From Ignavibacteria bacterium (GTDB lineage Bacteria > Bacteroidota > Ignavibacteria > Kapaibacteriales > Kapaibacteriaceae): DNA of 34,519 bases. Shown here piece after piece: positions 15,513 to 34,519 of this stretch (the stretch's first letter is position 1; the number at the start of each line of letters is the position of its first letter). A model generated the notes under the pieces. That model saw only the letters and a program-made list of their open reading frames with translations. It did no database searches and had not been told where the DNA came from. The DNA is taken from NCBI GenBank assembly GCA_013204605.1, contig JABMNI010000040.1:1-34519 (forward strand), given 5' to 3'. A program made the translations under genes and the position numbers.

Positions 15513-17681
15513 ATGAAGTTAAAATTACCCGATAATCCCGTCAAGCTAATTCAGTACGCACTTTACGCGCTGCTCACATTAGTACTGATAATCGCCGTAT
15601 ACGTTTTTGCAATACTTCAGGATGGACTTCCCACGCTCGAGCAACTCGAAAATCCACGTCAGGATCTAGCTACACAAGTGTACAGTGCCGATGGCGAATT
15701 GCTTGATCACTTTGCAACTACGCGTAGAACATATACTCCGTATGATTCTATTCCCACATCCTTCGTAAACGCTCTGGTTGCAACTGAAGACCGCGCCTTT
15801 AGATCGCATTGGGGCGTTCACTCGTTTCGCATAATTAAGGCTGCAGTAAAAAATCTTTTCGCCTTTCGCGCAAAAGAAGGTGCCTCCACAATCACACAAC
15901 AACTTGCTCGAAATCTGTATTTCACACAAGAGCAAACGCTGTCGCGAAAGGTACGAGAAGCTTGGACCGCACTTCAAATTGAACGCACATACACGAAAAA
16001 TGAAATTCTTGAAATGTATGCCAATACGGTGTATTATGGTAAGGGGGCTTACGGGATTCGCGTTGCTTCGCAGGTGTACTTCAACAAAGATCCCATGCGA
16101 TTAACCGTGGCAGAAAGTGCATACTTGGTTGGATTGTTTAAAGCCCCTGAAAGATATAACAGCGACGATAGTGCCGGCATTGCACGCAGAAATCTGATTC
16201 TCGGAATGATGCGCGAAGCTGAATTCATTGATGAAATTCATTGGTCGAAGGCAACGCAAGAAGGATTAGTAAAACCAAGTAAAAAAGAAATTGTTCGCGG
16301 CATTGCTCCGCACTTTGTTGAGCTCATCAGACAAGCATTGAACAAATCTGGGGAATGGAACGGTCGGCTTAAGGGTCACGATTTGTACCGCGACGGTTTG
16401 GTGATTTATACAACGCTGAATGCCCGACTGCAAAAACATGTGCTGCAATCTGTTGAAGAACACATGGCGGATTTTCAAAAACAATTCGATAAATCTTGGT
16501 CTTGGAAATCCAAATCGGGATTGCTCGATGAACTGGTGAATCGTGCCATTAATAAAAGATCAGATTATATTACCGGAAACGCCGATTTCAAAAAACGATT
16601 GAAACAGCGACTTAGCAAATCAACTTCATTCATCGACTCTGTAAAGCGCCTTGCCACAGTAATTCAAATCGGAACTGCCGTTATTGATCCGCATACTGGT
16701 GCGGTGTTAGCTATGGTAGGGGGCTCACCCCTCGGAATGAAATTGGATGCAGCCGCTCGATACTCTTTGAATCACGTAACACAAATTCGACGCCAACCCG
16801 GATCAGCATTTAAACCGTTTGTGTATGCCTCTGCGCTTGAGTCGGGACAGACTCCCGAATCTGTAATCGAAAGCACTCCTTTTAGCATGACGCTGTCTAG
16901 CGGTGACGTGTGGGCGCCAAGTGGCTCTAGCAAGGACGGTCTCCCAATGACTCTGCGAAGTGCTTTGAAGTACTCAACGAACAGCGTTGCTGCCCGACTG
17001 ATAACTGAACACACTTCGCCATCTGACGTTATTGCATTATGCCGGCGGATGGGTATTACAAGTGCAATGCCCAGCGTTCCATCTATCGCGCTAGGATCTG
17101 TTGAAGTAAGTCCCATCGAGTTGATCAATGCATTCTCGCCGTTTGTTAATCAAGGTGTGAGTGTGATGCCTTCGTATATCACCCGCATCGAAGACCGAAT
17201 GGGAAATGTGCTGTACGATGCACGCTTGCCGCGTCAAGTTGGCGACGCAATTAGTTTGACTACAGCACAAAACATGCTTTCCATGTTACGTGGCGTTGTT
17301 GATGGTGGCACTGCATCCGGTATTCGTAGATTTTTCCGCTATGATGCCGCCGGAAAAACAGGAACAACGAATGACTTTGCCGATGCCTGGTTTGTGGGTT
17401 TAACACCACAACTGGTTGCCGGTGTATGGACGGGATTTGACGACCGTCGAATTCAGTTTACCGGTAACTACGGTCAAGGTGGCAGGGCCTCGGCACCGGT
17501 ATGGGGAAGAATGATGCAGAAGATTTACAACGATCCGCAACTTTCGTATAAGCAAAAGAAATTCACGATGGTTGCGGATTCAAACGATGTGTTGAATCCG
17601 GAGTTGATTATTAATCCACCGTCGGATCAGATATCAGACCCTGCACCCGACACCACGAATCAATTAGGAATTAGGAATTAG
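15513..17681 (+). CDS. Class A penicillin-binding protein (PBP1A-type)
   Basis: This bifunctional enzyme polymerises glycan strands and cross-links peptidoglycan outside the inner membrane. The 722-residue product has one N-terminal membrane helix (about 12-33). The GT51 glycosyltransferase domain has the catalytic Glu92 in TEDRAF and GASTITQQLARN (113-124). The transpeptidase domain has SxxK as SAFK (421-424), STN (478-480) and KTGTTN (605-610). The gene begins five bases after the PorE-like stop. Its last codons and stop (LGIRN-stop) are made from the NAATTAN heptamer array, so the native C-terminus may have been altered by the repeat. Confidence 0.95.
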   Translation: MKLKLPDNPVKLIQYALYALLTLVLIIAVYVFAILQDGLPTLEQLENPRQDLATQVYSADGELLDHFATTRRTYTPYDSIPTSFVNALVATEDRAFRSHWGVHSFRIIKAAVKNLFAFRAKEGASTITQQLARNLYFTQEQTLSRKVREAWTALQIERTYTKNEILEMYANTVYYGKGAYGIRVASQVYFNKDPMRLTVAESAYLVGLFKAPERYNSDDSAGIARRNLILGMMREAEFIDEIHWSKATQEGLVKPSKKEIVRGIAPHFVELIRQALNKSGEWNGRLKGHDLYRDGLVIYTTLNARLQKHVLQSVEEHMADFQKQFDKSWSWKSKSGLLDELVNRAINKRSDYITGNADFKKRLKQRLSKSTSFIDSVKRLATVIQIGTAVIDPHTGAVLAMVGGSPLGMKLDAAARYSLNHVTQIRRQPGSAFKPFVYASALESGQTPESVIESTPFSMTLSSGDVWAPSGSSKDGLPMTLRSALKYSTNSVAARLITEHTSPSDVIALCRRMGITSAMPSVPSIALGSVEVSPIELINAFSPFVNQGVSVMPSYITRIEDRMGNVLYDARLPRQVGDAISLTTAQNMLSMLRGVVDGGTASGIRRFFRYDAAGKTGTTNDFADAWFVGLTPQLVAGVWTGFDDRRIQFTGNYGQGGRASAPVWGRMMQKIYNDPQLSYKQKKFTMVADSNDVLNPELIINPPSDQISDPAPDTTNQLGIRN

Positions 17682-17694
17682 GAATTAGGAATTG
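17661..17694. repeat. Heptanucleotide array, NAATTAN family, at the PBP/FAH junction
   Basis: Units CAATTAG, GAATTAG, GAATTAG, GAATTAG and a partial GAATTGA run through the 3' end of the PBP gene and stop just before the ATG of the FAH gene. The array encodes the last residues of the PBP (NQLGIRN) and supplies its TAG stop. A change in copy number would change where the PBP ends and the distance to the next start codon. Confidence 0.85.
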
Positions 17695-19757: not shown

Positions 19758-20367
19758 TACTCCAGTCTCCGCTGCATTGTGCAGTGCCACTTTCCCCAAG
19801 CTGTTGTTTATTCCTTTCTTCGCTCTTACGGTGCTAGTTGTCAGTTGCAATCCATGGGTGTTCGACCTAAACAAAGACACTGGTTGGCCGGTTGAAGGAC
19901 GCATCTTGAAGAACTACGACAGTGTGGACGTGGTGTCCGGAAATGCAATTCAAATTTCAGGCGACAGTAAGATTGCAATGCGGTGTGTGAATGTAACAGA
20001 TGGTGTGTTTAGTTCCGATGTACAACTCAGATACGGCACGTTACTAACTTTGGAATTCAGGTCTACGCCATTCGATGATTCAACAAGCCTGCGCAACGGA
20101 CTCATTCTAACTATTGGTCGTGATGAAGTTAAGGCAGAACTAGACGGTAAGTCAACCACGGTTCCAACATCGCAAACCACCAACAAACCATTTATTGTCG
20201 TTATCACTCACCAGGGTAATTGGATTGATGTTGATATAGCGTGCACAAAAATTGGACGCTTCAAATCTCAAGCCCCTTCCACTCAGTGGCTGCTTGCAAA
20301 TACTAGCGCACCCGGTTCCGCGTTGTTTGTCAACCCCAGATTTGAGCCCCTTTCCATGTATTATTAA
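19750..20367 (+). CDS. Small lipoprotein, unknown function
   Basis: The start is placed at the ATG 19750, inside the last codons of the preceding gene. The longer GTG frame (from 19684) would run through that gene and adds no plausible domain. The 205-residue product has a signal with lipobox LVVSC (MSNTPVSAALCSATFPKLLF...ALTVLVVSC), followed by a short soluble domain of mixed strands (FDLNKDTGWPVEGRIL..., LILTIGRDEVKAELDGK) that could be a small jelly-roll or lectin-like fold. No family is recognised. Two AGCCCCTT octamers occur in its last third. Confidence 0.6.
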   Translation: MSNTPVSAALCSATFPKLLFIPFFALTVLVVSCNPWVFDLNKDTGWPVEGRILKNYDSVDVVSGNAIQISGDSKIAMRCVNVTDGVFSSDVQLRYGTLLTLEFRSTPFDDSTSLRNGLILTIGRDEVKAELDGKSTTVPTSQTTNKPFIVVITHQGNWIDVDIACTKIGRFKSQAPSTQWLLANTSAPGSALFVNPRFEPLSMYY

Positions 20368-20408
20368 GTCGAGTAAAAAAGTTGAGTAAAACGAAAGTTG
20401 AGTAAAAC
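20368..20408. repeat. Triple short repeat GTYGAGTAAAA before kmo
   Basis: Three near-identical copies lie between the lipoprotein stop and the kmo ATG: GTCGAGTAAAAA (20368-20379), GTTGAGTAAAAC (20381-20392) and GTTGAGTAAAAC (20397-20408). The last two each contain a TTG that could start the same reading (MSKT). This makes a partial tandem duplication of the translation-start region the simplest explanation. Confidence 0.7.
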
Positions 20409-20409
20409 A

Positions 20410-21792
20410 ATGTCGAAATCAATTACAATTGCCGGCGCGGGATTAGTTGGAAGTCTATTGGGTATCATGCTTGCTAAAAGGGGCTATATGGTGCAAATTT
20501 TTGAACGACGCGCTGATATGAGAACCGAGAGTATGTTGGCTGGTAGGTCGATAAATCTTGCGATGTCCGACCGCGGACTGATGGCCTTGGAAATGGCCGG
20601 ACTTGCAGAGGATATTCGCAAGATTGCTATCCCAATGCGAAATCGAATAATGCATGATGAGCACGGGGGCATTTCAAAGCAGCCATACGGTGTTGACGAT
20701 CAGGCCATTAACAGCGTCTCGCGCGGAGACCTGAACATGATGCTCATGACGATGGCCGAAGCCAACGGAGTTACCATCCATTTCAATGCGAGATGCCAGA
20801 GTATTGATGTCGATTCCGCAACCGCCGTATTCGGTGAAGAGCCGAATAATTTACAGACGGCTCAAAGCGATATACTTATTGGTGCCGATGGTGCCTACAG
20901 CGCCGTCCGCGATGCGTTGTTACGTACCGATAGATTTGATTACTCACAATCATATCTCGATCACGGCTACAAGGAGTTACATATTCCGCCAACACCTGAT
21001 GGTGGTTTTCAGTTGGATAAGAATGCACTTCACATTTGGCCGCGTCATAGCTTTATGATGATTGCACTTCCAAATCTTGATGGCAGTTTTACCGTAACGC
21101 TCTTTCTCGCTCATAAGGGGCCCGTAAGTTTCGAACACCTTACTACTGAGAATGCGGTTACAGAATTTTTTGCAACGCACTTTGCCGATGCAGTTCCTTT
21201 GATGCCCACATTGCTGCAAGACTTCTTTTCCAATCCGGAATCATCACTAGTAACTGTGAAGTGTTCCCCGTGGACCAGAAATAGCAACATTGTTCTTATC
21301 GGCGATGCTGCCCATGCCTTGGTACCATTCTACGGACAAGGCATGAACTGTGGTTTCGAAGATTGCCGAGTACTTATTGACTGTTTGGATTATACAAACG
21401 ATAATTGGGAACGGGCTTTACAGTTGTACGAACATCATCGTAAACCGGATGGTGACGCAATTGCCGATCTTGCTGTTCAAAATTTTATTGAAATGCGTGA
21501 CAAGGTTGCCGACAAAGATTTTCTGCGTAGGAAAAGGATTGAGGGCTTTATGTTTAAGCGTTACCCAACCAAGTTTGTGCCTCAATACACGCTGGTTACA
21601 TTCATGCCAAACGTTCCGTATTCAGAGGCAAAACGAATTGCTAAAGAACAGGATGTGTTGATGGCTAGGTTGATGAATAATCCCATCGTATATAATGAAT
21701 GGGAATCAGATGCAGGGATTAAAATAATCGACGATGAAATGGAAACCAGAAAAGAACTGGTGTATTTGCCCATTTCTCCAAGCGTGTACTAA
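20410..21792 (+). CDS. kmo: Kynurenine 3-monooxygenase (FAD-dependent)
   Basis: The enzyme hydroxylates L-kynurenine to 3-hydroxykynurenine using NADPH and O2, in tryptophan breakdown and the route to quinolinate/NAD. The 460-residue protein starts at the ATG 20410 (a TTG four codons earlier lies in a repeat). It carries the Rossmann GAGLVG (9-14), an FAD-binding ADG motif (IGADGAYSAVRDAL) and GDAAHALVPFYGQGMNCGFED (from about 298). GRSINLAMSDRGLMALE and the C-terminal helical region match kmo rather than general aromatic hydroxylases. No other kynurenine-pathway gene is in the window. Confidence 0.93.
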   Translation: MSKSITIAGAGLVGSLLGIMLAKRGYMVQIFERRADMRTESMLAGRSINLAMSDRGLMALEMAGLAEDIRKIAIPMRNRIMHDEHGGISKQPYGVDDQAINSVSRGDLNMMLMTMAEANGVTIHFNARCQSIDVDSATAVFGEEPNNLQTAQSDILIGADGAYSAVRDALLRTDRFDYSQSYLDHGYKELHIPPTPDGGFQLDKNALHIWPRHSFMMIALPNLDGSFTVTLFLAHKGPVSFEHLTTENAVTEFFATHFADAVPLMPTLLQDFFSNPESSLVTVKCSPWTRNSNIVLIGDAAHALVPFYGQGMNCGFEDCRVLIDCLDYTNDNWERALQLYEHHRKPDGDAIADLAVQNFIEMRDKVADKDFLRRKRIEGFMFKRYPTKFVPQYTLVTFMPNVPYSEAKRIAKEQDVLMARLMNNPIVYNEWESDAGIKIIDDEMETRKELVYLPISPSVY

Positions 21793-22451: not shown

Positions 22452-23537
22452 TTATTGTTTCGAGGACTGCTCCACGTATGGTTGGGAATTTTTCAAAACA
22501 GTATATATCGTATTGAGAAGTTTTCTTGCGACGTAGATAATGGCAACCTGTGACGGTCGATTCTTCCGCTTCTCGATGTGGGCGGCCCTGAATCTGTCGC
22601 TAGACCTTGCTGCCATCCAAGCAGATTGGACCAAGGCCACGCGTAGTTCTTGCTGAGCGCGGTGCTGCATTGGCATCGATCGGTCTGACGAGCCGCTCTG
22701 ATGCCGCATCGGTACTAGGCCTACGTAACTAGCTAAATGGTCGATTGTGCGGAATCGTGATATCGGATTCAATTCGGTTAGTATAGTAATAGCCGTTAGT
22801 CTACCTATGCCAGGTATCGTACACAAGAGATCCATATCATCTGCGTACCTTGGACTAGAGGCCAATTCATTAATCCGCCGCAAATGCTTCTGGTACGCTA
22901 TCTCTGAAGTCTCGAGATTCTCTAGCATGATCCCAAATGTAGTCTGCGCCGATGCGCTGGGTAACGTTCTCATTCCGAGCCAAGCCCTCAATGGCTTCGA
23001 CCAATGCGACGTATCCAATTCATCTGGTATGTGTATGCCGTATCTGTGAATAAACATCTTAATGCGTGTCTTGTGTTTGGACACTTCCTGACGCAGGCGC
23101 GAACGATACCGAACAAGATCTCGATCGCCAAGTTGTTCATCGCTCGGCACATAAATCTTTCGAAGTGTTTCTGATTTGAGAGCCTTGCAAATCTTCATAC
23201 TGTCTGATCGGTCGCTTTTCGTTGTGCGCTCCTTATTCGTTGTTGGAATGTCCGCGGCATTGACCACGATGGTTTCTACTCCAAGTGCATTCAACTGCTT
23301 ACACAACGCAAATCCACTAAATCCAGCTTCATAAGCTGCCGTCAATTGTTTGCCCGGATACTTTCTCTTCACTTTTCGAATGTACTCTTCCATTATATTG
23401 GATCGAATATGCGCTTGTGCCAGAACTATATGCTGTGACATCAACGTTACGTCAATATGTTTTTTATGAACATCCATTCCGATGTATATTCGATTCGAAT
23501 TGTCATTCTCTTTCGTAGCTTGACTCATTGGCCGCAT
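22452..23537 (-). CDS. IS110-family transposase (DEDD recombinase)
   Basis: The start at 23537 is preferred because GGAGG stands just upstream; a further ATG at 23573 would add 12 Asn-rich residues. The 361-residue protein has the RuvC-like DEDD residues Asp22 (IYIGMDVHK), Glu70 (AAYEAGFSG), Asp109 and Asp112 (TTKSDRSD). The C-terminal transposase-20 domain has CTIPGIGRLTAITILTE and the SGSS serine block at 281-284. The family moves by RNA-guided (bridge RNA) recombination without classical terminal repeats. All catalytic positions are intact, so it may be active. Non-coding DNA is short upstream (92 bp) and long downstream (about 660 bp), which resembles the IS1111 subgroup. Confidence 0.93.
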   Translation of the reverse strand: MRPMSQATKENDNSNRIYIGMDVHKKHIDVTLMSQHIVLAQAHIRSNIMEEYIRKVKRKYPGKQLTAAYEAGFSGFALCKQLNALGVETIVVNAADIPTTNKERTTKSDRSDSMKICKALKSETLRKIYVPSDEQLGDRDLVRYRSRLRQEVSKHKTRIKMFIHRYGIHIPDELDTSHWSKPLRAWLGMRTLPSASAQTTFGIMLENLETSEIAYQKHLRRINELASSPRYADDMDLLCTIPGIGRLTAITILTELNPISRFRTIDHLASYVGLVPMRHQSGSSDRSMPMQHRAQQELRVALVQSAWMAARSSDRFRAAHIEKRKNRPSQVAIIYVARKLLNTIYTVLKNSQPYVEQSSKQ

Positions 23538-23629
23538 GATTCCTCCGTTTAGATTGTTGTTGTTGGTATTCACAACCTACGACGGTTTCAGAATCATGTG
23601 GCTTTTTATTTAACATACGCTCTTCGGGG

Positions 23630-25411
23630 CTACTTTTGATTAAACTGATACAGCTCTCCGTGCAAAACGGAATACACACGCAGTACCTTGCCTTGTATAT
23701 CGCGTACCATTAAAAAACCGTTGTTCACATTTTCAGAAAGCGACAGTAACTCGGAGCGGTTGTCGATGTTTGCGCCTCGTACTATAAAGCGTCCGTTGAG
23801 GTCCACAATATCGCAGGTGACAGAAGCTTCGGGCCATGCTATGGTGGAGGCATCGTTTATGCCTGTGCCTACGATTTCTATCGTATCGGTTACCGTGGCA
23901 CACCAGTTCCTAGTCATCACTACTGCGTGGTAGCGTCCGGGTATAGGGTCAAGTAATTCTAACGCACTTCTTCCATCCAGCTCTTCCCAAGGTAGAGGCG
24001 AGCCGTTGCGGTACCACTTCATTAGTGCTATGTGTGGTTTTGTTTCTGGTGTTGCCTCGAGCAATGTACCCGTTATGGGCTTGGCTATGTAGTGCTGATA
24101 GAGCTTTATATTGAATTCGTTTTGGTTTCGAATATCGGCGCAGTAAATGGTATCGATAAAACTGCCATCGGTTGCTACCATCGTGAAACGACCCGTAAAG
24201 CCTGGTTCACGCACAAATGTTACAAGGTCCGACAGTTCACGTTGTATTCGACCGGCTATACTCATTCCTGCATTGTTGGAATACGTAAACGTCACCTTGT
24301 GTCTGTTCTCTCCTCGAACAACTAACTGTATTGTATCGCACGAATACAGAAGGTCATCTATCTTGAACGGACGTACTGTTATGGGAGTGATAGATGTAAT
24401 GAATATTGAATCTGGCATACCGTCCGACATCATAAATGTCCGGCCATCCGGAAGGTGGGCTGAATAGTATGGTCTTGCAATGGTGTGTAGTGGAGGTGAA
24501 TTCTTTGGCGAGCAGTACTTATTGGTGTCTAGGCTATATTTTTCATAGTATTCACTAAGTGTTGAATGAATAATTCCGCAATAGGTTATTGTATAGAGTG
24601 TGTCCGGCGTTTCGACATAACTATCACTCGAAGCACGAGATTTTGTTGCAATACTATCCAATCCGTCTATATCTATAAAATAGTTAGTGTTGTCGAACCT
24701 ACTTCTGACGTTGTTAATGTATCGTCCGAATATTGTTGGTGTTGAGTTGTAATTTTCACTTAAGCTGAACAGCGTATCCCAACTAACTCCTAGATCTGAA
24801 GTCTTCATCAAGTGTGGATAAGTGCTTTCGCCAGTTTCATACAACACTCTACCATCCTGTGATACGATCATTTTTCGCGCGCTCTCTATTCGAATTGGCA
24901 ACAGTCTAACATGATGCAGATTCTGCGCAGGCCACCAGATGTGTAACGGCTCCGAGCCCCCCCACGATACATATACGCCTGCAGGGTGACGGATGATACC
25001 ATCAGTATCTGTATAGTAAAATGAATCTACAATCTCCTTAGCACCATCCATGGGGTCATAGCGCATAACATACTTTCTGTATGGTCTAAAGCGCCGATCG
25101 TAATCTTTATAGTAGTACCACTTGCCATCTGGTAGTACTACAGGGTCGCAGTCCTTGTTATCAAATCCATTTTCAAACTCATTTAAACCCCCATTGGGCA
25201 GCAAGGACCAGGTAAGAGTTTCAGTATTCATCGTATAGTTGAATATTGCAATTGTTGCATCATCCGTTACAATTGGTCTCCAAATGCCACTATAAGGTAT
25301 TGGTGTGTCGTTTAGTGGATTTGGGAACACCTTTATGTAGTCCTCTTGACAGGTAGCGCTGAAGCTACATAGAAACAAGAACGAAACCACTATGTTTACA
25401 GTACTTCTCAT
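23630..25411 (-). CDS. Secreted BNR/sialidase-repeat-like protein, probable T9SS cargo
   Basis: The 593-residue product has a signal peptide (STVNIVVSFLFLCSFSATC-Q). A region of propeller-like repeats contains an Asp-box-type motif (KTSDLGVSWDTLF) and other DGxxYY/DGR strands. A Cys-containing Ig-like part follows, and the C-terminal 75 residues (CDIVDLNGRFIVRG ... NGFLMVRDIQGKVLRVYS) resemble a type A T9SS sorting domain, although weakly. No enzyme active site is evident. Its ATG overlaps the stop of the giant subtilase by four bases (ATGA), so its translation is probably coupled to that gene and would follow its phase state. Confidence 0.65.
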   Translation of the reverse strand: MRSTVNIVVSFLFLCSFSATCQEDYIKVFPNPLNDTPIPYSGIWRPIVTDDATIAIFNYTMNTETLTWSLLPNGGLNEFENGFDNKDCDPVVLPDGKWYYYKDYDRRFRPYRKYVMRYDPMDGAKEIVDSFYYTDTDGIIRHPAGVYVSWGGSEPLHIWWPAQNLHHVRLLPIRIESARKMIVSQDGRVLYETGESTYPHLMKTSDLGVSWDTLFSLSENYNSTPTIFGRYINNVRSRFDNTNYFIDIDGLDSIATKSRASSDSYVETPDTLYTITYCGIIHSTLSEYYEKYSLDTNKYCSPKNSPPLHTIARPYYSAHLPDGRTFMMSDGMPDSIFITSITPITVRPFKIDDLLYSCDTIQLVVRGENRHKVTFTYSNNAGMSIAGRIQRELSDLVTFVREPGFTGRFTMVATDGSFIDTIYCADIRNQNEFNIKLYQHYIAKPITGTLLEATPETKPHIALMKWYRNGSPLPWEELDGRSALELLDPIPGRYHAVVMTRNWCATVTDTIEIVGTGINDASTIAWPEASVTCDIVDLNGRFIVRGANIDNRSELLSLSENVNNGFLMVRDIQGKVLRVYSVLHGELYQFNQK

Positions 25412-28400
25412 GGCAGCAATAGAGGTAAAGTATGTTGCTCATAACCACTCATCACTCTTAGCAGAACCGCACCACGGTATTCCTCAATATTTACAAATGC
25501 AGAGGTATTGCTTAGCAGCTCAAAAGTTTGCTGTGACAGTAGTTGACCTATCACAGAAACTACCTGAACCTGCACTGTTCGATTATGCTTGCCAATATTT
25601 TCAACAAGTAGAGCATTAACCTGTGAGTAAGAAACTCTCAATGAACCAACAGTTGCTGTTTGCTGTGGTTGCCGTCCTGCCCTTTTTCCAAACTCCTCTT
25701 CTTCAAAGTACTGCAGACGGGAAACCTCCGTAGCATTTGTAACCATCGTAGCAATGTTAGCTGATGTTGCTGAATCGTAGGAATGCATTACGTTACTTCG
25801 AACTATATCCAGCAATGACGTAACCGAAAACGTGTCGATTTCTGAGCATGGCCAGCCATTCACATCCAGTGAATCAATCCTGGCCATAGCTTCCTGGTGT
25901 CTATTTGAGACATCCAAGGAATAGATGCCCGCGGTAAGTGCCTTCATTCTTACATAGCATGGTAACAAAGTATCGGCTATAACGGAGTCACAGGCTGCTT
26001 CGAACAAAATGTTATATGTAATGTCTTGTAAGATGGTGACGATTTCCAAAGCAGCAACCACGGCATCGAATCTTTGTTCTGCTCCAAGATTAATGTTGTT
26101 CATCCATACAATTGCCGTATCCAAATCGGCAATTCTGAATTCATTTGGTCGGTAGCCATCATAATACCGAATGTCAACGTCTGAGTCTCGGTAGAGATAG
26201 GAAGGGCAATGCACTTCCCAACCTCCAACTAGTGCCGAGCACGCTGGCTCTGTTACGTCATGCACGTTTAGAATATCTCCGACTATATCAAACAGTCCCG
26301 GTTCATATCTTACAGCATTTATCTCCACTGCAGGGTTACTGGCAGATGTGCTAATCCATTCGTTGTTGTTTACACGGACAGTTTTGACAACATTTCTGGT
26401 GTCGGGAGACTCATCCAATTGTCGATGAAGGTGGTATTGGCTTCCTTTGTCAATCCTGTTATAACCACACTCAACCAAGAGGTTTGCATACAACGTCACA
26501 TCGAAGTCATAGGAAAAGTTGACTCTTGGTACGGCACTGGAGAACGATTTGAAAAGAAAGGGATTATCATTTACCCTTGTACCATCCATATCTAGATCAT
26601 TTCTGCCTTCGTGTTCATGACGAACAATCCAGTAGTTCTCTGTTGGGAAAAACCTAGTTTTTGAGTCAACCAGTATCTGGGTGCCATTAGTAGCGCGTAA
26701 ACCGGATTTTGCATTCACAATGTCATTTCCACGCATTAGCAGATTACCTGAATTCTCATGCGAAATGGCATTTCCCATAAACTCAGCATTCTCTTCAAAG
26801 AAAGCCTCTGTGGAGGCTATCAACGGCTTTCCAAAGTCATTATCATATACTCTGCTGAACAGAGAGTTCTTTAAATTCACACCAAGTCGCGTTTCGCCAA
26901 AGCGGTTTAAACAAATCTGGTTTGTACTCAGCTGATCTGAAAAACCCGTCAAACTATACACCACCGTGTTCGAGCTAAACTCATTGAAACCGCTACTAAT
27001 ACAGGAAACTCCTGACGCTAGATATGCAAACTTTGAGGCCTGTACTTTTACGTGGGAAAGCTTGGTCGTGGCAATGCCGCTCACTTCAGGGAAATTCTCT
27101 AAATACTCTCCACTACTATTCTCCAATGGCTTCCTATAATAGTAGAATGTATTCCACTTACCATCAGGGTCCTTAAACAAACAGCTAGAAATCTTCACTG
27201 TTCTGATGCGCGATTCAACATCCTGTGCGTTTATCTCTGGGTGAGCTTGTAGGTCTAAGTTGTAGTAAACAGACAGCATAGCACCATCCCTTACAAAACC
27301 ACTAAGCCCCTTAACCTGATTCCGATTCATAAGGAAGTCTGAGTGAGCAATTTCTCCAAAACCATCATTAGTCTGGTTGCTAAAGCCGTTAATGATAGGC
27401 GCATTCACGAGGTCAACATAGACATTGCTGAATTTGGCGTTGTGGGCACGAAAACCCGTGAACACTTTGGCTAGTGGATCGTTGCCCGTGAGTCCCGTAA
27501 ATGGGTTTTGCACCGTTTTGATCACCAGACGTGGAACAGCTGGTTGCTCGTAACATTGGCCATCGAATATAATGGCATTTACTTCTGACTTCGACTGCGG
27601 ATTTAACCCTTCTACAAGGATCCTGCCTTCGGTTTCGAATTTTGCATTTGGCTGTGCTGCCAATTGAAGAATCGATTGATTATCGACTCTAATTGTAGAA
27701 TTTCTGCTACCTTCGAGTCCTCCCAACGAAAGTGTATCCTGTTGCGTAAGATTGATGGCAGCGTTCTCGAGTAACTTGAGTTTTGCATGTGATAGATCGA
27801 CGTGATTATTACCAACATTCGGAAACATAAAAACTGAGGTGGCAGGGGCAGTAGCAGCAGGTATTTCCACAACAGGTAATTCTGTGGTTCCAATTACAGG
27901 ATCGATACTGGCACGACCTATAACTGATATTTTTCCGGTTCCTTCTACCTTTAATGACCTAACATGAATGCCTGAGCTAAAGGGTGCCGACGAAATAAAT
28001 TCAATTTCGCCACCACTTTGTACGAGAACGTCGGCATCGATGTTGACAGAACGCGAATTGTTCTTGACTCTGATTTTGCCACCGTTACCAACGATGACCT
28101 TTCTACCTTGCGCTACAGCAACAATATCACAGCCGTAATCTAGGTCCAACACCGCTCCGTTAGTAATAACAAGATCCTTGCTACCTTGTAGTAAAATTGA
28201 TGCTGCCGGATAGACCCTTGTAACACCAGTGGTTGCAAAAACTGGTTCGGCGTTGTTTTGAAACTCTACTTTTCCAAATACTTTGCACTCTTCGTTGCTT
28301 GTTGGTGAGAATTGTATAGTGCCACTCTTGAACACAACATCCCCAAGGGTTAGGTTACCTACTATTGACCCACTACCCTGCAAAAAGCCACTGAACATGA

Positions 28401-30405
28401 TCCTACCATTTGTGTTGCTTGTTGTTGTTATTGTTCCGTTGTAATCAAACTGAACAATACCATCGATGCATAACACATTGTCTATTCCAACAGTGTAGGT
28501 GTTACTACCGAGTATCGTTTTGCCAAAACTCAGGTGGCTATCCTCTCCAGTTGGAGTAAAGCCAAAAGCTGGTGAGTCAAATAGAAGCTTATTATTTTCA
28601 AACGATCCTGCACTTCTGCCCCAAGCACCAAAAAGCACATACTTTTTTCCGTTAATAGTAGTGCCGTTGGTAAAGTTAATTTGATCATTATTGCCGTAGA
28701 TGTTCTGACCCTTTGCTGGAATAGACTGTGCTACACATCGGTAGGCATCAACCAGACCGTAGCCATAGTTGTATGACCATGAACGCTTCATTGGGTCGCC
28801 GATTTGCGTTGTATAAGTATAGGTAGGGTTTGGCACTTTCCGTGCCGTGAACGTCATTACGTCGCGCATGCGTCTGTGTAGCTCATTCTTCCATACAATT
28901 TTATTCTCCGTTTGCAAACGCGTGTTTACTAACACAGGATTTGCTGAATAGTAATCGTTATAGCACCCACTAATTTGAATGTCAGTTGCAAGCAATGTTT
29001 CAGTACTTAGATTTACCCCTCCTGTCACATCTACAGAACGCATGAGTGCAAATACACCGTTTACAAAGGGCAATACATAGGATTGATCAGCGAGATGTTG
29101 TTTATAGGTTTCTCCTGTTCCCTCGCATAGAATACTACTAGGAACAACAATATCCGGATGCTGTGCCCAGGCTTGCGGCGTATTCAAGTTGCCAAGAAGT
29201 TTGAGTCTGTAGCACCCTTCGCTCTCATCCTGCGCTATACCACATGAGCTAGATGCTTCATAGAGAACGTTGGATGGCGTTGCTGTTGTGCCCTGCAACT
29301 CAGGCTTTTGATGCCAAAACGAATACTTCGGAGTAGATGGACTGTTGTCGAAATAGGACTTGAACAGATTAATCTCTCTGTCGAATGATGCACAATCAGG
29401 ATCCACACCATCTACGGCTGTAGTGTTTACAACAACTCCATCGTTCCAGGTGCTAGCAACCACTGTTCGAGTATCCTGCCAAGCACTAACATTCATACGC
29501 TTGTCAAAGTTAATGGATGGTTTATACAGACAAAGTGGGTCGTAACTCGTAACTGTCTTTCGAAATTGGAATGCACCACGATGCGTAGGCGTGACCACAG
29601 GGAAGGCATTCTGACTCATTGAAAAAGGAGCATATTCAGAAGACGCACTGTAAATGTGTGGAAGTTGAAGGCCAGGTGAACTTGGATCAAGATCGAGGCT
29701 TAAGGGATTTTTGCTTAAGGACGAGATAAAGTACTTGCAGTTCGGAGCAATACCAACCATTCCCTTTCCATTGGATGCGCAAGCCATTATCGACAAACAT
29801 TGCACAGCATGATTGTCTGTTGCAGACATTCTTACGATGTAGTTCCCCGACAGATTAGGCTGATTGTTTAAATTCTGACCAACATCAGGAACCCAACGTT
29901 CATTTTCGAATTTCTCAAAGACATGAATGTTTCCATTTTGACTGCTATTCTGAGCTTCATCTTCGATGGTAACATAGGATCCGTCTGTTTGAAGCCTATG
30001 AATATTCATAACCAGATCCTCCCGGCCATCAAGATTACCCATGGTGTTTACTTCGTGAGTGGCATCCATGTTTAATCCAACACCTGACGTAAATCCATAG
30101 CTGGGAACTGGTTCATCGTTGCTATTATATGGCGCCGTGGCGTCATCTGCTACTAGAACTCGCACATCGGAACTTCCCATAGTTATCTCCCAGGCCATGG
30201 GAATCCTTGCCGCGTACAAGCCCCATTGCAAACCCATTCGGTGATAACTTGGAATGATGGTGCCGTTGTCATCCCTCCTCTGCTTGATATATACTCGCGT
30301 AGCTTCCGTACCCCATTCTGTAGATAGCTGTCCCGTTTTCATACTAGGCTCCAATCTCCATGGTTGCGCATGCGCATCACTAAACCACGCGACGAAGATC
30401 CACAA
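25408..30405 (-). CDS. Giant divergent subtilase with beta-helix region, probable T9SS cargo, likely phase-variable
   Basis: The open frame encodes 1665 residues from a TTG at 30405 and stays open to a TGA at 30478. Counting from the TTG, an S8 subtilisin-type domain keeps a recognisable catalytic set: Asp87 (VLVADDAT), His199 (DNHAVQCLS), oxyanion Asn406 (LLGN) and Ser442 (DQSYVLPFVNG). The flanking consensus (HGTH, GTS) is degenerate, so activity is uncertain. From about 560 to 1400 there are parallel beta-helix-like strand repeats. The last 75 residues resemble a T9SS sorting domain. The signal peptide (GCLTCLALWIFVAWFSDAHA-Q) extends upstream of the TTG and has no in-frame ATG. The well-placed ATG at 30499 is one base out of register because of the 7-bp repeat at 30431-30472. 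Confidence 0.8.
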   Translation of the reverse strand: MWIFVAWFSDAHAQPWRLEPSMKTGQLSTEWGTEATRVYIKQRRDDNGTIIPSYHRMGLQWGLYAARIPMAWEITMGSSDVRVLVADDATAPYNSNDEPVPSYGFTSGVGLNMDATHEVNTMGNLDGREDLVMNIHRLQTDGSYVTIEDEAQNSSQNGNIHVFEKFENERWVPDVGQNLNNQPNLSGNYIVRMSATDNHAVQCLSIMACASNGKGMVGIAPNCKYFISSLSKNPLSLDLDPSSPGLQLPHIYSASSEYAPFSMSQNAFPVVTPTHRGAFQFRKTVTSYDPLCLYKPSINFDKRMNVSAWQDTRTVVASTWNDGVVVNTTAVDGVDPDCASFDREINLFKSYFDNSPSTPKYSFWHQKPELQGTTATPSNVLYEASSSCGIAQDESEGCYRLKLLGNLNTPQAWAQHPDIVVPSSILCEGTGETYKQHLADQSYVLPFVNGVFALMRSVDVTGGVNLSTETLLATDIQISGCYNDYYSANPVLVNTRLQTENKIVWKNELHRRMRDVMTFTARKVPNPTYTYTTQIGDPMKRSWSYNYGYGLVDAYRCVAQSIPAKGQNIYGNNDQINFTNGTTINGKKYVLFGAWGRSAGSFENNKLLFDSPAFGFTPTGEDSHLSFGKTILGSNTYTVGIDNVLCIDGIVQFDYNGTITTTSNTNGRIMFSGFLQGSGSIVGNLTLGDVVFKSGTIQFSPTSNEECKVFGKVEFQNNAEPVFATTGVTRVYPAASILLQGSKDLVITNGAVLDLDYGCDIVAVAQGRKVIVGNGGKIRVKNNSRSVNIDADVLVQSGGEIEFISSAPFSSGIHVRSLKVEGTGKISVIGRASIDPVIGTTELPVVEIPAATAPATSVFMFPNVGNNHVDLSHAKLKLLENAAINLTQQDTLSLGGLEGSRNSTIRVDNQSILQLAAQPNAKFETEGRILVEGLNPQSKSEVNAIIFDGQCYEQPAVPRLVIKTVQNPFTGLTGNDPLAKVFTGFRAHNAKFSNVYVDLVNAPIINGFSNQTNDGFGEIAHSDFLMNRNQVKGLSGFVRDGAMLSVYYNLDLQAHPEINAQDVESRIRTVKISSCLFKDPDGKWNTFYYYRKPLENSSGEYLENFPEVSGIATTKLSHVKVQASKFAYLASGVSCISSGFNEFSSNTVVYSLTGFSDQLSTNQICLNRFGETRLGVNLKNSLFSRVYDNDFGKPLIASTEAFFEENAEFMGNAISHENSGNLLMRGNDIVNAKSGLRATNGTQILVDSKTRFFPTENYWIVRHEHEGRNDLDMDGTRVNDNPFLFKSFSSAVPRVNFSYDFDVTLYANLLVECGYNRIDKGSQYHLHRQLDESPDTRNVVKTVRVNNNEWISTSASNPAVEINAVRYEPGLFDIVGDILNVHDVTEPACSALVGGWEVHCPSYLYRDSDVDIRYYDGYRPNEFRIADLDTAIVWMNNINLGAEQRFDAVVAALEIVTILQDITYNILFEAACDSVIADTLLPCYVRMKALTAGIYSLDVSNRHQEAMARIDSLDVNGWPCSEIDTFSVTSLLDIVRSNVMHSYDSATSANIATMVTNATEVSRLQYFEEEEFGKRAGRQPQQTATVGSLRVSYSQVNALLVENIGKHNRTVQVQVVSVIGQLLSQQTFELLSNTSAFVNIEEYRGAVLLRVMSGYEQHTLPLLLP

Positions 30406-30499
30406 CGCTAAACAAGTTAAACAGCCTAGTTCTTGGCTCTTGGCTCTTGGCTCTTGGCTCTTGGCTCTTGGCGAAAATCAACATATTTACAACTCTCAT
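30380..30499 (-). CDS. Short out-of-register reading from the likely true start of the giant subtilase
   Basis: AGGAG stands seven bases before the ATG at 30499, the best initiation site in the region. With the six repeat units present, translation runs MRVVNMLIF, then two KSQEPRA-type turns, then 17 unrelated residues to a TAG at 30380. With five (or eight) units the same ATG would read into ELGCLTCLALWIFVAWFSDAHA-Q and on through the 1665-residue frame. With four or seven units it hits a stop right after the repeat. It is best seen as the OFF form of the downstream gene, not as a gene of its own. Confidence 0.55.
   Translation of the reverse strand: MRVVNMLIFAKSQEPRAKSQEPRTRLFNLFSVVDLRRVV
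30431..30472. repeat. Perfect heptanucleotide tandem repeat TCTTGGC x6 (GCCAAGA on the coding strand)
   Basis: Six uninterrupted identical 7-bp units lie between the RBS/ATG at 30499 and the hydrophobic core of the signal peptide of the giant subtilase. As seven is not a multiple of three, each slip changes the reading frame. Three units encode the heptapeptide period A-K-S-Q-E-P-R in all frames used here. Perfect tracts like this are the classic substrate for slipped-strand mispairing. Confidence 0.95.
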
Positions 30500-30814
30500 T
30501 GTCAACTCCTATTTGTTAAAGTTATACACTGAATACTCAACTTACGGATTCCACATTGGTTTCAGGCAAAGACCAGGATTTATACACATTCTAGTATCAA
30601 AGTCATTGCATTTCACAAGCATTAACATGCCACGAAACTGGATAAAGTCTCATTCTCTCGCGGACATTTTCTCCGGGACAATATGACACCAATTACAATC
30701 TGCTTATATCAAGATGGTTCTTACTAAAGCGTTGAATGTCTTTCGCAGTATAGCCCTAATGCGCGTAATCTGGGTTAAACTAGACTTACGTACTTTTTAA
30801 TACCCTATCTGCCC
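30500..30814. other. Non-coding stretch upstream of the giant subtilase
   Basis: About 315 bases separate the stop of the glycine-rich cargo gene from the ATG at 30499. I see no gene in it. On the minus strand it holds AT-rich candidates for promoter elements (TATAAC about 25 bases before the ATG) but no convincing -35 partner. No strong terminator hairpin was found after the glycine-rich gene. Confidence 0.5.
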
Positions 30815-33355
30815 CTATCTCTCAATAACTATAATTTGCGACGTGGTTAACAATGGTGTAGTATACACAACAAAGTACAGTCCCTGACTCCAACTTCTTG
30901 TTGATATGTTGTTGACGTATTCTGTTTTATCAATAGAATTGTGCTCGATGTTATTGCTGTAAACTTCCATGCCTTGAATGTCAATAATTCTCAATGTGTA
31001 CAGTCCTGGAGCGGTCATCAGAATGCTTGTATTTAAGTCGTCGCTAGCAGGATTTGGTGACACACTTAACGTTGGCAACGCAAACAGCCTTACAATCCTA
31101 CCCTTTTGATAACAGACGCCTAGAACTGCCAGATTTCCGTCACGAACCGTAGTTCTCGGACTCTGCCACACCTTCAACCATTCCACACTGACAAGCTCGA
31201 GTGGTGACTCGACCAAGGCTGCCGACAAAACCGTGCCACGAAACTCTGTCAACGTCATTAATCCGCCCTTGATGTCAATCGATTCAATCTCAATTGTTAA
31301 CGTCCTTTTCTGACCAATCAAGTCAATGTTATCCGAAACAATACTTCCTACCGTAACAGATTTTGGAGCAAACAACTTAGAATCAAAACGAACTGTCAAT
31401 CTCATTTTTGTATCCGGAAGTGAAATAGTGTCGGGCACTAAATTGCTTCGAATCGGAATTGGAAAGTCTAAGTCGCCGGTCTTTGCCGTTGTGTCTGATA
31501 GATACACTACAATCTTAATTGGGTTCACTACGGCTGTAACATCAACCACCCTGCTCGACGGACAAGGTGCCAACACCACTACATCTAACGTATCCGAATA
31601 GGATCTGTCTTCGTCTGCAAAGAATGAAACCAAAATGTCAAGCCTTTTGCCCGGAGCAATACTCACTGGAAAACTTGCGGGTTGAATTACTATGAAATCG
31701 TTTGAAAGTCCGATGCTTTGTATCACTAGAGAATCGTCATCGTTGTTGGTTATTGCAAATGATTTTGTGTAGGCCTTCTTGAAGTCTACTGTCCCAAAAT
31801 CTAACTGCGCATCAACGGTGTACTGTGGCGAATTATCCCAAACTCTTAGTCCTCCAGCAGTGTACACACATCCGCTCGAATCTGTGGTAATAACGGAATA
31901 CACACCCGGTGTTGATACCGTAGTGAACTTCGTATTTGCCCCATTGCTCCACTTGTATTTAATATACCCATCCGAAGCGCCTAATATCTGCATCTGACCC
32001 GGACATATTGGACCACCACCCCAGGCTGATAGTATTAAATCGGCAGGCACTTTCCAATTGAACCGATTTATAACAACACCGGTGTCTCCAGGTTTAGAAT
32101 CCCAGGCTAATCCAAATGCGTCGTTATCCGGATATGTATGCGTTCCATTAACTCCGGGCGATACATTCGACACTACATTTTCCGTAGGCTGTTTGTACAC
32201 AATTACTCCGCCACCTCCACCACCGCCAGGACCATGAGCATTGAATTTGTGACTAATAATTCCACCGTCACCGCCACGGGCCGATACATTTAACGTATCG
32301 TAAATTTTCGCTGCATCTATGTAGATAGTTCCACCAGCGCCTCCGCCGCCAGCCCCGTCCCACTCTGCCGGTTTAAGTACACTTTGGCCGTCGGCAGAAA
32401 TTGTGTGACCATATGAAATAATTGTCTTAGCAATTAGAAATACAATTCCCCCACCATTCGCGCCGGAAGTACCAAGCGTATCATTTTGATGACCACCGCC
32501 ACCACCACCGCCAAAGAAAAATCTTTGTTTTGGAACGAGTGAATCGAGTCCTTTACCTGGTCGTCCACCAACAAACTTATCCAAATCGCAATGTCGGTTT
32601 GCCGATCCTCCGTCGCCACCGTTTCCACCATTTCCACCACCTGCGCCACCAGCGTTATTTCCATTGCCACCACCGCCGCCGTTACCAAGTGGACCACGTC
32701 CTGCCGGTTGATAGATAACTGGCAAGTTCACAATGCCTTCACCTTTAGCTCCCGAAGTTCCAAAACTCCAGTTGACTAATTGCGCGTACACGCTGCACCT
32801 GCTTACAGGTACACTAACAACGCCACCTCGAAAACCTTGACCCGAAACTGTAATGTCTGCGTTCAAGGTTAAATCTTCCTCAACTTCAATTGCAACTACA
32901 CCACCAATGCTTCCATTCCAAGGTCGAGCCACAATATCTTTTGTAACTCGCGCTGATTTATACCGAGCCACTTTTACAAGCTGCACGTTACCATCGGGAT
33001 CGTACGTGTGAACTAGTTTAGAACCGAAATAAAATTGGTCGCCATTTATTCGCGTAATAGTTAAAAACTCCGCACAGCCTGCCCAGTTCAAATCTGTAAA
33101 ATTTCCAAAGGTGCTATCGTTTGCGGTTACTATCTTAGCCCCCTTCATCTGAATAATCAAAACACGATCACCAGGTGAAAAATTGGCCGGATTACCCACG
33201 CGCAACAGACTGTCGCAGGGCGAGATTTCAGTTACTTGAACGTATTGATTTACTACTCCGCCAATGTTTTGCTGAGCACCAACTGTACCAGGCAAAACTG
33301 CGCAGATCACTAAAAAAGTGAATAAGGAGGCGATATGTATAGTTACTTTAGTCAT
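30815..33355 (-). CDS. Glycine-rich secreted protein with C-terminal T9SS sorting domain
   Basis: The start is placed at the ATG 33355, giving a signal peptide (VTIHIASLFTFLVICAVLPG, cleavage near VGA-Q). The longer frame to 33484 would put 43 charged residues before it and run through the intergenic DNA. The 846-residue protein has an N-terminal strand domain. A very Gly-rich stretch follows (runs such as GNGGGGGNGN and GGGGGGGH; plus-strand about 32200-32700), which may form polyglycine-type helices or an adhesive surface. Then come an Ig-like/PKD-type part (KYKWSNGANTKFTTVSTPG) and an HYDIN/ASPM-like domain (VDFKKAYTKSFAITNNDD). The C-terminus (SVSPNPASDDL ... SQGLYFVVY) is a clear type A T9SS signal. 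It probably ends on the cell surface; no enzymatic role is seen. Confidence 0.8.
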   Translation of the reverse strand: MTKVTIHIASLFTFLVICAVLPGTVGAQQNIGGVVNQYVQVTEISPCDSLLRVGNPANFSPGDRVLIIQMKGAKIVTANDSTFGNFTDLNWAGCAEFLTITRINGDQFYFGSKLVHTYDPDGNVQLVKVARYKSARVTKDIVARPWNGSIGGVVAIEVEEDLTLNADITVSGQGFRGGVVSVPVSRCSVYAQLVNWSFGTSGAKGEGIVNLPVIYQPAGRGPLGNGGGGGNGNNAGGAGGGNGGNGGDGGSANRHCDLDKFVGGRPGKGLDSLVPKQRFFFGGGGGGGHQNDTLGTSGANGGGIVFLIAKTIISYGHTISADGQSVLKPAEWDGAGGGGAGGTIYIDAAKIYDTLNVSARGGDGGIISHKFNAHGPGGGGGGGVIVYKQPTENVVSNVSPGVNGTHTYPDNDAFGLAWDSKPGDTGVVINRFNWKVPADLILSAWGGGPICPGQMQILGASDGYIKYKWSNGANTKFTTVSTPGVYSVITTDSSGCVYTAGGLRVWDNSPQYTVDAQLDFGTVDFKKAYTKSFAITNNDDDSLVIQSIGLSNDFIVIQPASFPVSIAPGKRLDILVSFFADEDRSYSDTLDVVVLAPCPSSRVVDVTAVVNPIKIVVYLSDTTAKTGDLDFPIPIRSNLVPDTISLPDTKMRLTVRFDSKLFAPKSVTVGSIVSDNIDLIGQKRTLTIEIESIDIKGGLMTLTEFRGTVLSAALVESPLELVSVEWLKVWQSPRTTVRDGNLAVLGVCYQKGRIVRLFALPTLSVSPNPASDDLNTSILMTAPGLYTLRIIDIQGMEVYSNNIEHNSIDKTEYVNNISTRSWSQGLYFVVYTTPLLTTSQIIVIER

Positions 33356-33476
33356 AACTCGTAGGGAGGGTGAAGCCTCCAAATCCCGTGCCATCTCCGC
33401 AATTCTACGCCGTTTAATCTGTAAGGTCAAGCCCAACAATAAGTTACGAATAGGTGAAATCGACGCTATACCCATA

Positions 33477-33540
33477 ATTTCCACGTACTTGTGGCATTAT
33501 CCACACATTATCAACACATTATCAACCTAGATTTCCACAT
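33477..33540. promoter_or_regulatory. Cluster of DnaA-box-like sites, about 11-bp spacing
   Basis: Within the divergent intergenic region lie ATTTCCACG (33477), TTATCCACA (33497, perfect box), TTATCAACA (33508), TTATCAACC (33519) and ATTTCCACA (33531). The last four start 11, 11 and 12 bases apart, so they face the same side of the helix. Such helically phased boxes suggest cooperative DnaA binding, as at replication origins, or DnaA control of one of the divergent genes. An origin would also need an AT-rich unwinding element and a GC-skew change, which I could not measure. Confidence 0.45.
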
Positions 33541-33548
33541 TTTAGCAT

Positions 33549-34499
33549 ATGATTCTCCCAAAGGTACTTCCTAAGAAGGCAACAATAGGCATAATCGCGC
33601 CAGCATCACCCCAGCGCGACCTTCAACGTCTGGAACGAGGCATTGCGTACCTAGAGGGTCTAGGGCACACTGTGGTGCTTGGCAACCATGTTCACGGCAG
33701 ATTTGCCGAATATTTGGCGGGCACCGATGCTGAGCGACTATCTGATATTCACGAAATGTTTGCGAATCCCGCTATCGATGCAATTTTTTGTTCGAGAGGG
33801 GGCTATGGGACTCCGCGACTGTTGGACAGAATAGATTATTCGCTGATTGAAAAAAATCCAAAAATTTTTGTGGGGTTTAGCGATACCACAGCGCTTCAAT
33901 TTGCATTGCTGAAAAAGATTGGTCTCGTTACGTTTAGCGGTGCACTGCCTAGCGTGGATATGGCGGAAGATTTCGACGCTGAATCAGAAGAAATTTTTTG
34001 GCGCGTGCTACAATCTACAAAGCCCCTTGGCATAATTAATCAGTCGTATCCTGCAAAGAGAAATAAATCTGGTTCGGCTAGCGGGACATTTTTGGCAGGC
34101 AACCTATCAATGATGGGCGCTATCATGGGCACGCCGTTTATGCCTAAGTTGGACGGTACAATTTTGTTGGTTGAAGATATTGCCGAGGAAACGTATCGGT
34201 TGGACCGACTTCTTACGCAGTTGCGTTTGCAAATGTTAAATGACAACAACCAACCAAGTGGCGAATTGGCGGCGCTCTGTTTTGGGCAGTTTACAATGTC
34301 GAAGAATCCGGGTAACACACCACATCGTGATGTTAATGAATTGATTGAAGAACAGTCGGCGTGGGTGACGGGTCCAATAATTTCAAACATCATGTACGGA
34401 CACGAGTCAAAAAAACTCACGCTTCCAATTGGAGTGCGTGTGAAGATTCATGAAGAGGTTGACGCTCTGGACTTCTACGAAGTCAATTATCAATTATGA
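33549..34499 (+). CDS. LD-carboxypeptidase (peptidase family S66)
   Basis: S66 enzymes remove the terminal D-Ala from tetrapeptides during cytoplasmic murein recycling. The 316-residue product has no signal peptide. It shows the family blocks IGIIAPASP, CSRGGYGTPRLLD (81-93), the nucleophile Ser111 in VGFSDTTAL, Glu209 in LLVEDIAEE and His285 in YGHESKKLTLPIG, completing the Ser-Glu-His triad. It is the first gene on its strand, 60 bases after the DnaA-box-like cluster begins to fade. Its C-terminal residues NYQL and the stop codon are formed by the NAATTAN heptamer array. Confidence 0.93.
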   Translation: MILPKVLPKKATIGIIAPASPQRDLQRLERGIAYLEGLGHTVVLGNHVHGRFAEYLAGTDAERLSDIHEMFANPAIDAIFCSRGGYGTPRLLDRIDYSLIEKNPKIFVGFSDTTALQFALLKKIGLVTFSGALPSVDMAEDFDAESEEIFWRVLQSTKPLGIINQSYPAKRNKSGSASGTFLAGNLSMMGAIMGTPFMPKLDGTILLVEDIAEETYRLDRLLTQLRLQMLNDNNQPSGELAALCFGQFTMSKNPGNTPHRDVNELIEEQSAWVTGPIISNIMYGHESKKLTLPIGVRVKIHEEVDALDFYEVNYQL

Positions 34500-34519
34500 A
34501 TTACGAATTATGAATTACG
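34484..34519. repeat. Heptanucleotide array, NAATTAN family, at the window end (at least 5 units)
   Basis: CAATTAT, CAATTAT, GAATTAC, GAATTAT, GAATTAC follow each other exactly and continue to the last base, so the array may extend beyond the window. It begins inside the LD-carboxypeptidase gene, encodes its last three or four residues and provides the TGA stop. It belongs to the same repeat family as the arrays at 12336 and 17661. Confidence 0.85.

Follow-up and report, generated by a model that had tools for sequence, protein, structure and literature searches.

A Heptamer Array in the Signal-Peptide Region of a Subtilase-Like Gene as a Candidate Phase-Variable Switch in Kapabacteria

Organization of the Locus

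The window analysed here is a stretch of 34,519 nucleotides from an Ignavibacteria bacterium of the order Kapaibacteriales, and the locus under study in it is referred to as C35. On the minus strand a long open frame of 1689 codons, counted from the preceding stop, occupies positions 25408–30477; it begins at 30477, behind a TGA, and encodes a subtilase-like domain and a long C-terminal part. The preceding ATG start codon (30497–30499, minus strand) has a Shine-Dalgarno-like AGGAG (30506–30510, minus strand) six bases 5' of it, that is AGGAG-N6-ATG and not the N7 spacing given in an earlier, sequence-only reading of this DNA. Between this start and a hydrophobic stretch ending in AHA-Q sits the array of six perfect GCCAAGA units which that reading had described on the coding strand (30431–30472, minus strand). 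It is followed in the long frame by the signal-peptide core with its likely cleavage site LGCLTCLALWIFVAWFSDAHA-Q (30367–30430, minus strand), and a promoter/leader block ACCAA-N28-GTATAACTTT was located upstream of the start by a pattern search of the genome and alignment (30518–30560, minus strand). As claimed before, the long frame lacks an ATG of its own, with no ATG, GTG or TTG before the TTG at 30405 (TTG30405), and 94 bases, 1 mod 3, separate the upstream ATG from this codon. At six units this ATG is out of frame with the long frame.

The longest self-match in the window with a period that is not a multiple of three (non-3n) measures 35 bases, compared to a maximum of 14 in 60 Markov simulations, so the array is not due to chance. 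This genome has many tandem arrays with periods of 7–14, mostly in intergenic positions, and it is therefore not the array by itself which is remarkable but its position.

The stop of the long frame overlaps as ATGA with the start codon (ATG25411) of a partner gene of 593 amino acids (23630–25411, minus strand), an overlap correctly noticed in the sequence-only reading. Switching of the partner gene together with the subtilase would fit this arrangement. Just downstream of the partner gene a transposase of the IS110 family is found at 22452–23573. The gene upstream of the locus (30815–33484) has a match to the AgmC N-terminal domain, below the cut-off, with an E value of 2e-66, and also bears a type IX sorting domain. 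In two orphan modules elsewhere (L036 2113–5387 and L052 417–4945) a short reading frame resembling the sorting part at the subtilase C-terminus is closely followed by another partner gene, yielding the order subtilase, partner, C-terminal piece, partner. Such modules may have been left behind by tandem duplication or serve as donor cassettes. A polymorphic-toxin layout was considered for them and set aside, as no toxin domain was seen.

The Subtilase-Like Product

As the window protein alone found no family in scans of Pfam and NCBIfam, profiles at the level of the family were needed. Ten of 13 relatives match PF00082 (Peptidase_S8), the best with 2.1e-16, and the family profile matches solved subtilases in the PDB, with mirolase of Tannerella forsythia (PDB 8ehe) as the best hit (E 8.8e-20). 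Aspartate 111, histidine 223, and serine 466 (P0001 numbering) form a triad which is invariant in all 13 aligned relatives, and in the profile comparison the motifs around them align with those of mirolase. A structure model of the window protein, of low confidence (pLDDT 51), likewise has mirolase as its best match in the PDB. The likeness concerns the catalytic domain: the mirolase chain has 353 residues, whereas the window protein has about 1690, and the oxyanion-hole asparagine is not seen at the aligned site, which lies in a gappy part of the alignment and reads TPTHR in the window protein and GAGN in its closest paralogue C62 (51% identity). The sequence-only reading had spoken of a giant subtilase. 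This finds support at the family level, in the profiles and the invariant triad, while the window protein by itself lacks a Pfam match; the product is best called subtilase-like, a putative protease supported at the level of its family. Differences between C35 and C62 at the three codon positions amount to 0.37, 0.31, and 0.66, a pattern typical of constraint at the protein level.

When the ATG is joined to the long frame, the N-terminus shows the features of a complete signal peptide ending in AHA-Q, as had been proposed, with a hydrophobic core scoring 2.55, a net charge of +2 before the core, and a predicted cleavage site at AHA-Q. The type IX sorting domain (PF18962) was matched 116 times in the genome. 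Such a domain was not detected at the C-terminus of the window protein by domain and profile scans; it was detected in the products of C38, C68, and G038, which are described below.

Dependence of the Reading Frame on Unit Number

The C35 locus was translated in silico with 0–14 GCCAAGA units. The full frame was reached at 2, 5, 8, 11, and 14 units only, and six units yielded a product of 39 residues. This agrees with the frame rule of the sequence-only reading (open at 2, 5, and 8 units, closed at 4, 6, and 7) and with its statement that the locus is OFF as assembled, since six units close the long frame. Beyond the array the frame is intact over 1665 codons. Two marks of a contingency locus are hence present at C35, a perfect non-3n array in coding sequence and an intact frame which is opened or closed by the number of units.

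The units of the start-site arrays in this genome have lengths of 7 and 10 bp. Both are 1 mod 3, so every unit gained or lost shifts the frame. Inside the arrays all frames are free of stops and encode one peptide per array, which is AKSQEPR for the GCCAAGA array, cyclically in all three frames, and VAKSRQESPR, VAESRRESPR, and VIESHRESSR for the others. As the same stop-free peptide results in every frame, the frame is felt only at the exit of the array. From this it can be deduced that an array may lengthen or shorten and yet keep encoding a hydrophilic n-region.

Arrays at Other Loci of the Genome

The genome holding the window is a draft of 2.69 Mb in 86 contigs. At least three further loci in it (C62, C68, and C71/C38) carry non-3n arrays, with 10-bp units, at the same site. 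The recurrence of one layout at several loci is a usual, though not an obligatory, mark of contingency loci. In C62 the unit GTCATCGAGA is repeated 3.6 times between the ATG and the signal-peptide core, and with its three full units the gene is in frame, that is, ON as assembled. In C68 three copies of GTCGCCAAGA follow a start region nearly identical to that of the window. This gene is closed at three units, and so OFF as assembled, and open at 1, 4, or 7, with a long frame of about 787 codons undamaged past the array. Its product is unrelated to the subtilase and resembles a metalloprotease; it bears an HEVAHH motif as well as a type IX sorting domain. An array of GTCGCCGAGA (9.8 units), preceded by a start region resembling the window's, is cut off by the end of contig C71, and the start of contig C38 lies within an array of this unit (8 units) leading into another subtilase-like gene. 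These ends probably represent opposite flanks of a single long array; if so, the gene would be open at unit numbers that are multiples of three. A sample of 303 kb of the genome with 207 long frames contained no clean non-3n array within the first 150 bases of a gene.

Contig C62 stops inside the subtilase frame (end of L034, C62:49282), and contig C3 starts inside a partner gene on the minus strand (end of L036, C3:91461). The two may be neighbours split by an assembly gap.

About 75 bp upstream of the ATG are common to C35, C68, and C71, with alignment scores of 81, 60, and 56 compared to a shuffle maximum of 24. The pattern ACCAA-N20..50-GTATAACTTT has exactly three matches in the whole genome, which are these three loci, all with arrays, and the leader TATAACTTTAA-N5-AGGAGTTG-NN-AATG likewise occurs in the genome at these three loci alone. 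The upstream region of C62 has weak similarity to them.

Relatives in the Order and Class

With the single window protein as query no match was obtained among the genome contigs; a family alignment as query found 21 named loci of relatives, by which the genome falls among Candidatus Kapaibacterium and Ignavibacteria. Among roughly 19 homologues whose 5' end could be read, the majority have an ordinary start, an ATG followed by a signal peptide, and arrays are therefore not a trait of the family. In a family-wide search the 10-bp array pattern was seen in the genome of the window only, so there is no orthologous array to compare.

Other tracts do occur at this site. In a homologous subtilase from another family of the order (G038, L080) a tract of 13 cytosines separates AGGAG-ATG from the core. 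Frame arithmetic shows that its first ATG leads into the long frame at 12 or 15 cytosines but not at 13, although immediately ahead of the tract there is a second ATG that is in frame. In G033 the gene for a homologue of the C68 protein has GTTCTCG repeated 3.3 times directly after ATGAAAA, in frame. Among 294 genomes of the class GCCAAGA x4 was found in three, namely that of the window, G172, where the match lies outside any long frame, and G137. In the latter (L173 1739–5392) five units lie in the start region of a gene for a secreted-type protein of 750 residues, a third kind of protein, which at this number is closed from the first ATG and open from the second. Since G038, G033, and G137, which belong to families of the order other than that of the window, have different tracts at the same site, signal-peptide starts in the order seem to have acquired tracts on more than one occasion. 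The G137 gene is followed by one whose BNR/sortilin-like product bears a type IX sorting domain. The homologues of the C68 protein in L150, L152, and L153 (G011, G009, and G013) look truncated or fragmented, as if this gene were often lost.

A Candidate Contingency Locus

The C35 array is very probably the slippage tract of a contingency, or phase-variable, locus, as the sequence-only reading had proposed. The proposal gains support from three more loci with different non-3n arrays and from the private promoter/leader at three loci. In the suggested mechanism slipped-strand mispairing would alter the number of units at a high rate, and a population would mix ON and OFF cells, with each locus switching independently. 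At 2, 5, 8, or 11 units the ATG would be joined to the 1665-codon frame with a full signal peptide, and the product, a subtilase-like protein of the cell surface or the medium, would be exported by Sec and probably then by the type IX system. The partner gene coupled by ATGA would share the ON/OFF state. As six (or three) units are a short tract, the rate of slippage could also be low, and the evidence on array length comes from a single genome for the genus.

An improbable alternative is that chance expansion of a heptamer of a kind common in this genome broke the gene in its start region, leaving a pseudogene which is now dying. Tandem arrays are indeed frequent in the genome, and the broken or fragmented appearance of several C68-protein homologues in related genomes would suit such decay. 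Decay is difficult to reconcile, however, with the undamaged frames past the arrays at the two OFF loci, with the occurrence of differing units at this site in four or more loci, of which three share a private promoter/leader, and with C62, which is an ON allele.

It is still less likely that the array is irrelevant and that translation begins at TTG30405 or another nonstandard start in the long frame. TTG30405 is in frame, but it has no Shine-Dalgarno sequence at the usual distance upstream, and the good AGGAG-ATG further upstream is common to other loci. A product starting there would be without the charged n-region and most of the core, its best 11-residue hydropathy being 1.25 as against 2.55 for the ON form. 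Equally hard to credit is a wrong unit count in the assembly, with a gene constitutively in frame and the repeat as a neutral part of the n-region. The assembly is a draft in 86 contigs, and two contig ends, those of C71 and C38, fall within an array; on the other hand the 42-base array of C35 is shorter than ordinary reads, errors would be needed at both OFF loci, C35 and C68, and even then the coding sequence would still hold unstable non-3n arrays. Programmed ribosomal frameshifting was set aside, as a common layout with differing units does not suggest it.

For the loci taken together the best explanation is a limited group of opa-like contingency loci which would control secreted proteins of the type IX kind in Kapabacteria. 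More tentatively, with the chances somewhat against it, one may think of a portable start cassette, made up of the private promoter, ribosome-binding site, ATG, and slippery n-region array, placed before unrelated type IX-secreted proteases. One transcriptional control would then be combined with independent frame switches to an opa-like stochastic secretome.

Comparison with Known Switches

Frame-shifting switches made of simple sequence repeats are known mainly from host-adapted pathogens such as Neisseria. In the opa genes CTCTT repeats lie in the sequence coding for the leader peptide, at about 11 loci (PMC3745409). The loci described here resemble them in having non-3n arrays in the signal-peptide coding region, at several loci per genome, and in encoding what are probably surface or secreted proteins with an ON/OFF state set by unit number. 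The opa units are pentamers, the products outer-membrane proteins, and the organism a host-adapted pathogen, whereas here units of 7 and 10 bp occur in an uncultured environmental lineage. Switching of opa has been determined experimentally, at about 1e-3 per cell per generation (PMC3745409), while here it is deduced from sequence. Membership in the Neisseria Opa proteins was rejected, the window protein being subtilase-like; it is in working alone that the locus is opa-like.

In autA and autB of Neisseria and Haemophilus AAGC repeats closely follow the start codon, inside the DNA for the signal sequence, and autB is mostly OFF with its frame intact (PMC5118866). C35 shares with them the position of the array, right behind the start codon in a gene for a large secreted protein, and the OFF state with intact frame; autA and autB differ in encoding type V autotransporters, in their tetranucleotide units, and in that variation has been measured between strains. 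Long simple sequence repeats of heptamers, for example TAACTGA, have been described in Beggiatoaceae, Cyanobacteria, and some Bacteroidetes (PMC4679880). They are likewise tandem heptamer arrays near gene starts, Bacteroidetes included, but are mostly intergenic upstream of start codons with a proposed role in binding a regulator, whereas the C35 array lies inside the coding start. For Bacteroides, the examples given by a recent review are DNA inversions (PMC11868660).

The kind of switch is thus known, and for its occurrence in Kapabacteria or in type IX cargo we found no report in the part of the literature covered. If real, it would mean that uncultured environmental bacteria also bet-hedge secreted proteases, perhaps against phages, grazers, or competitors. 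It would also be a warning for annotation, because an assembled copy which is OFF leads to such genes being annotated as pseudogenes or with their true start missing.

Other Repeats in the Window and Genome

Further repeats were noticed next to start codons. At 17662–17693 of the window AATTAGG is repeated 4.6 times, ending just before ATG17698; the repeated AGG may act as tandem ribosome-binding sites, with the number of units tuning expression. At 20366–20408 two to three copies of the 16-bp unit AAAGTTGAGTAAAACG lie directly before an ATG at 20410. Near the ends of the window contig are a heptamer array of AATTATG/AATTACG (34485–34519) and (AC)13.5 (38–64), and several contigs of the genome end in or near such arrays. 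In L112 (10127–10187) a 15-bp in-frame repeat, ATGAGAAACGTGAGA, encoding the peptide MRNVR, lies at the beginning of a frame of 347 residues, forming an array of start codons.
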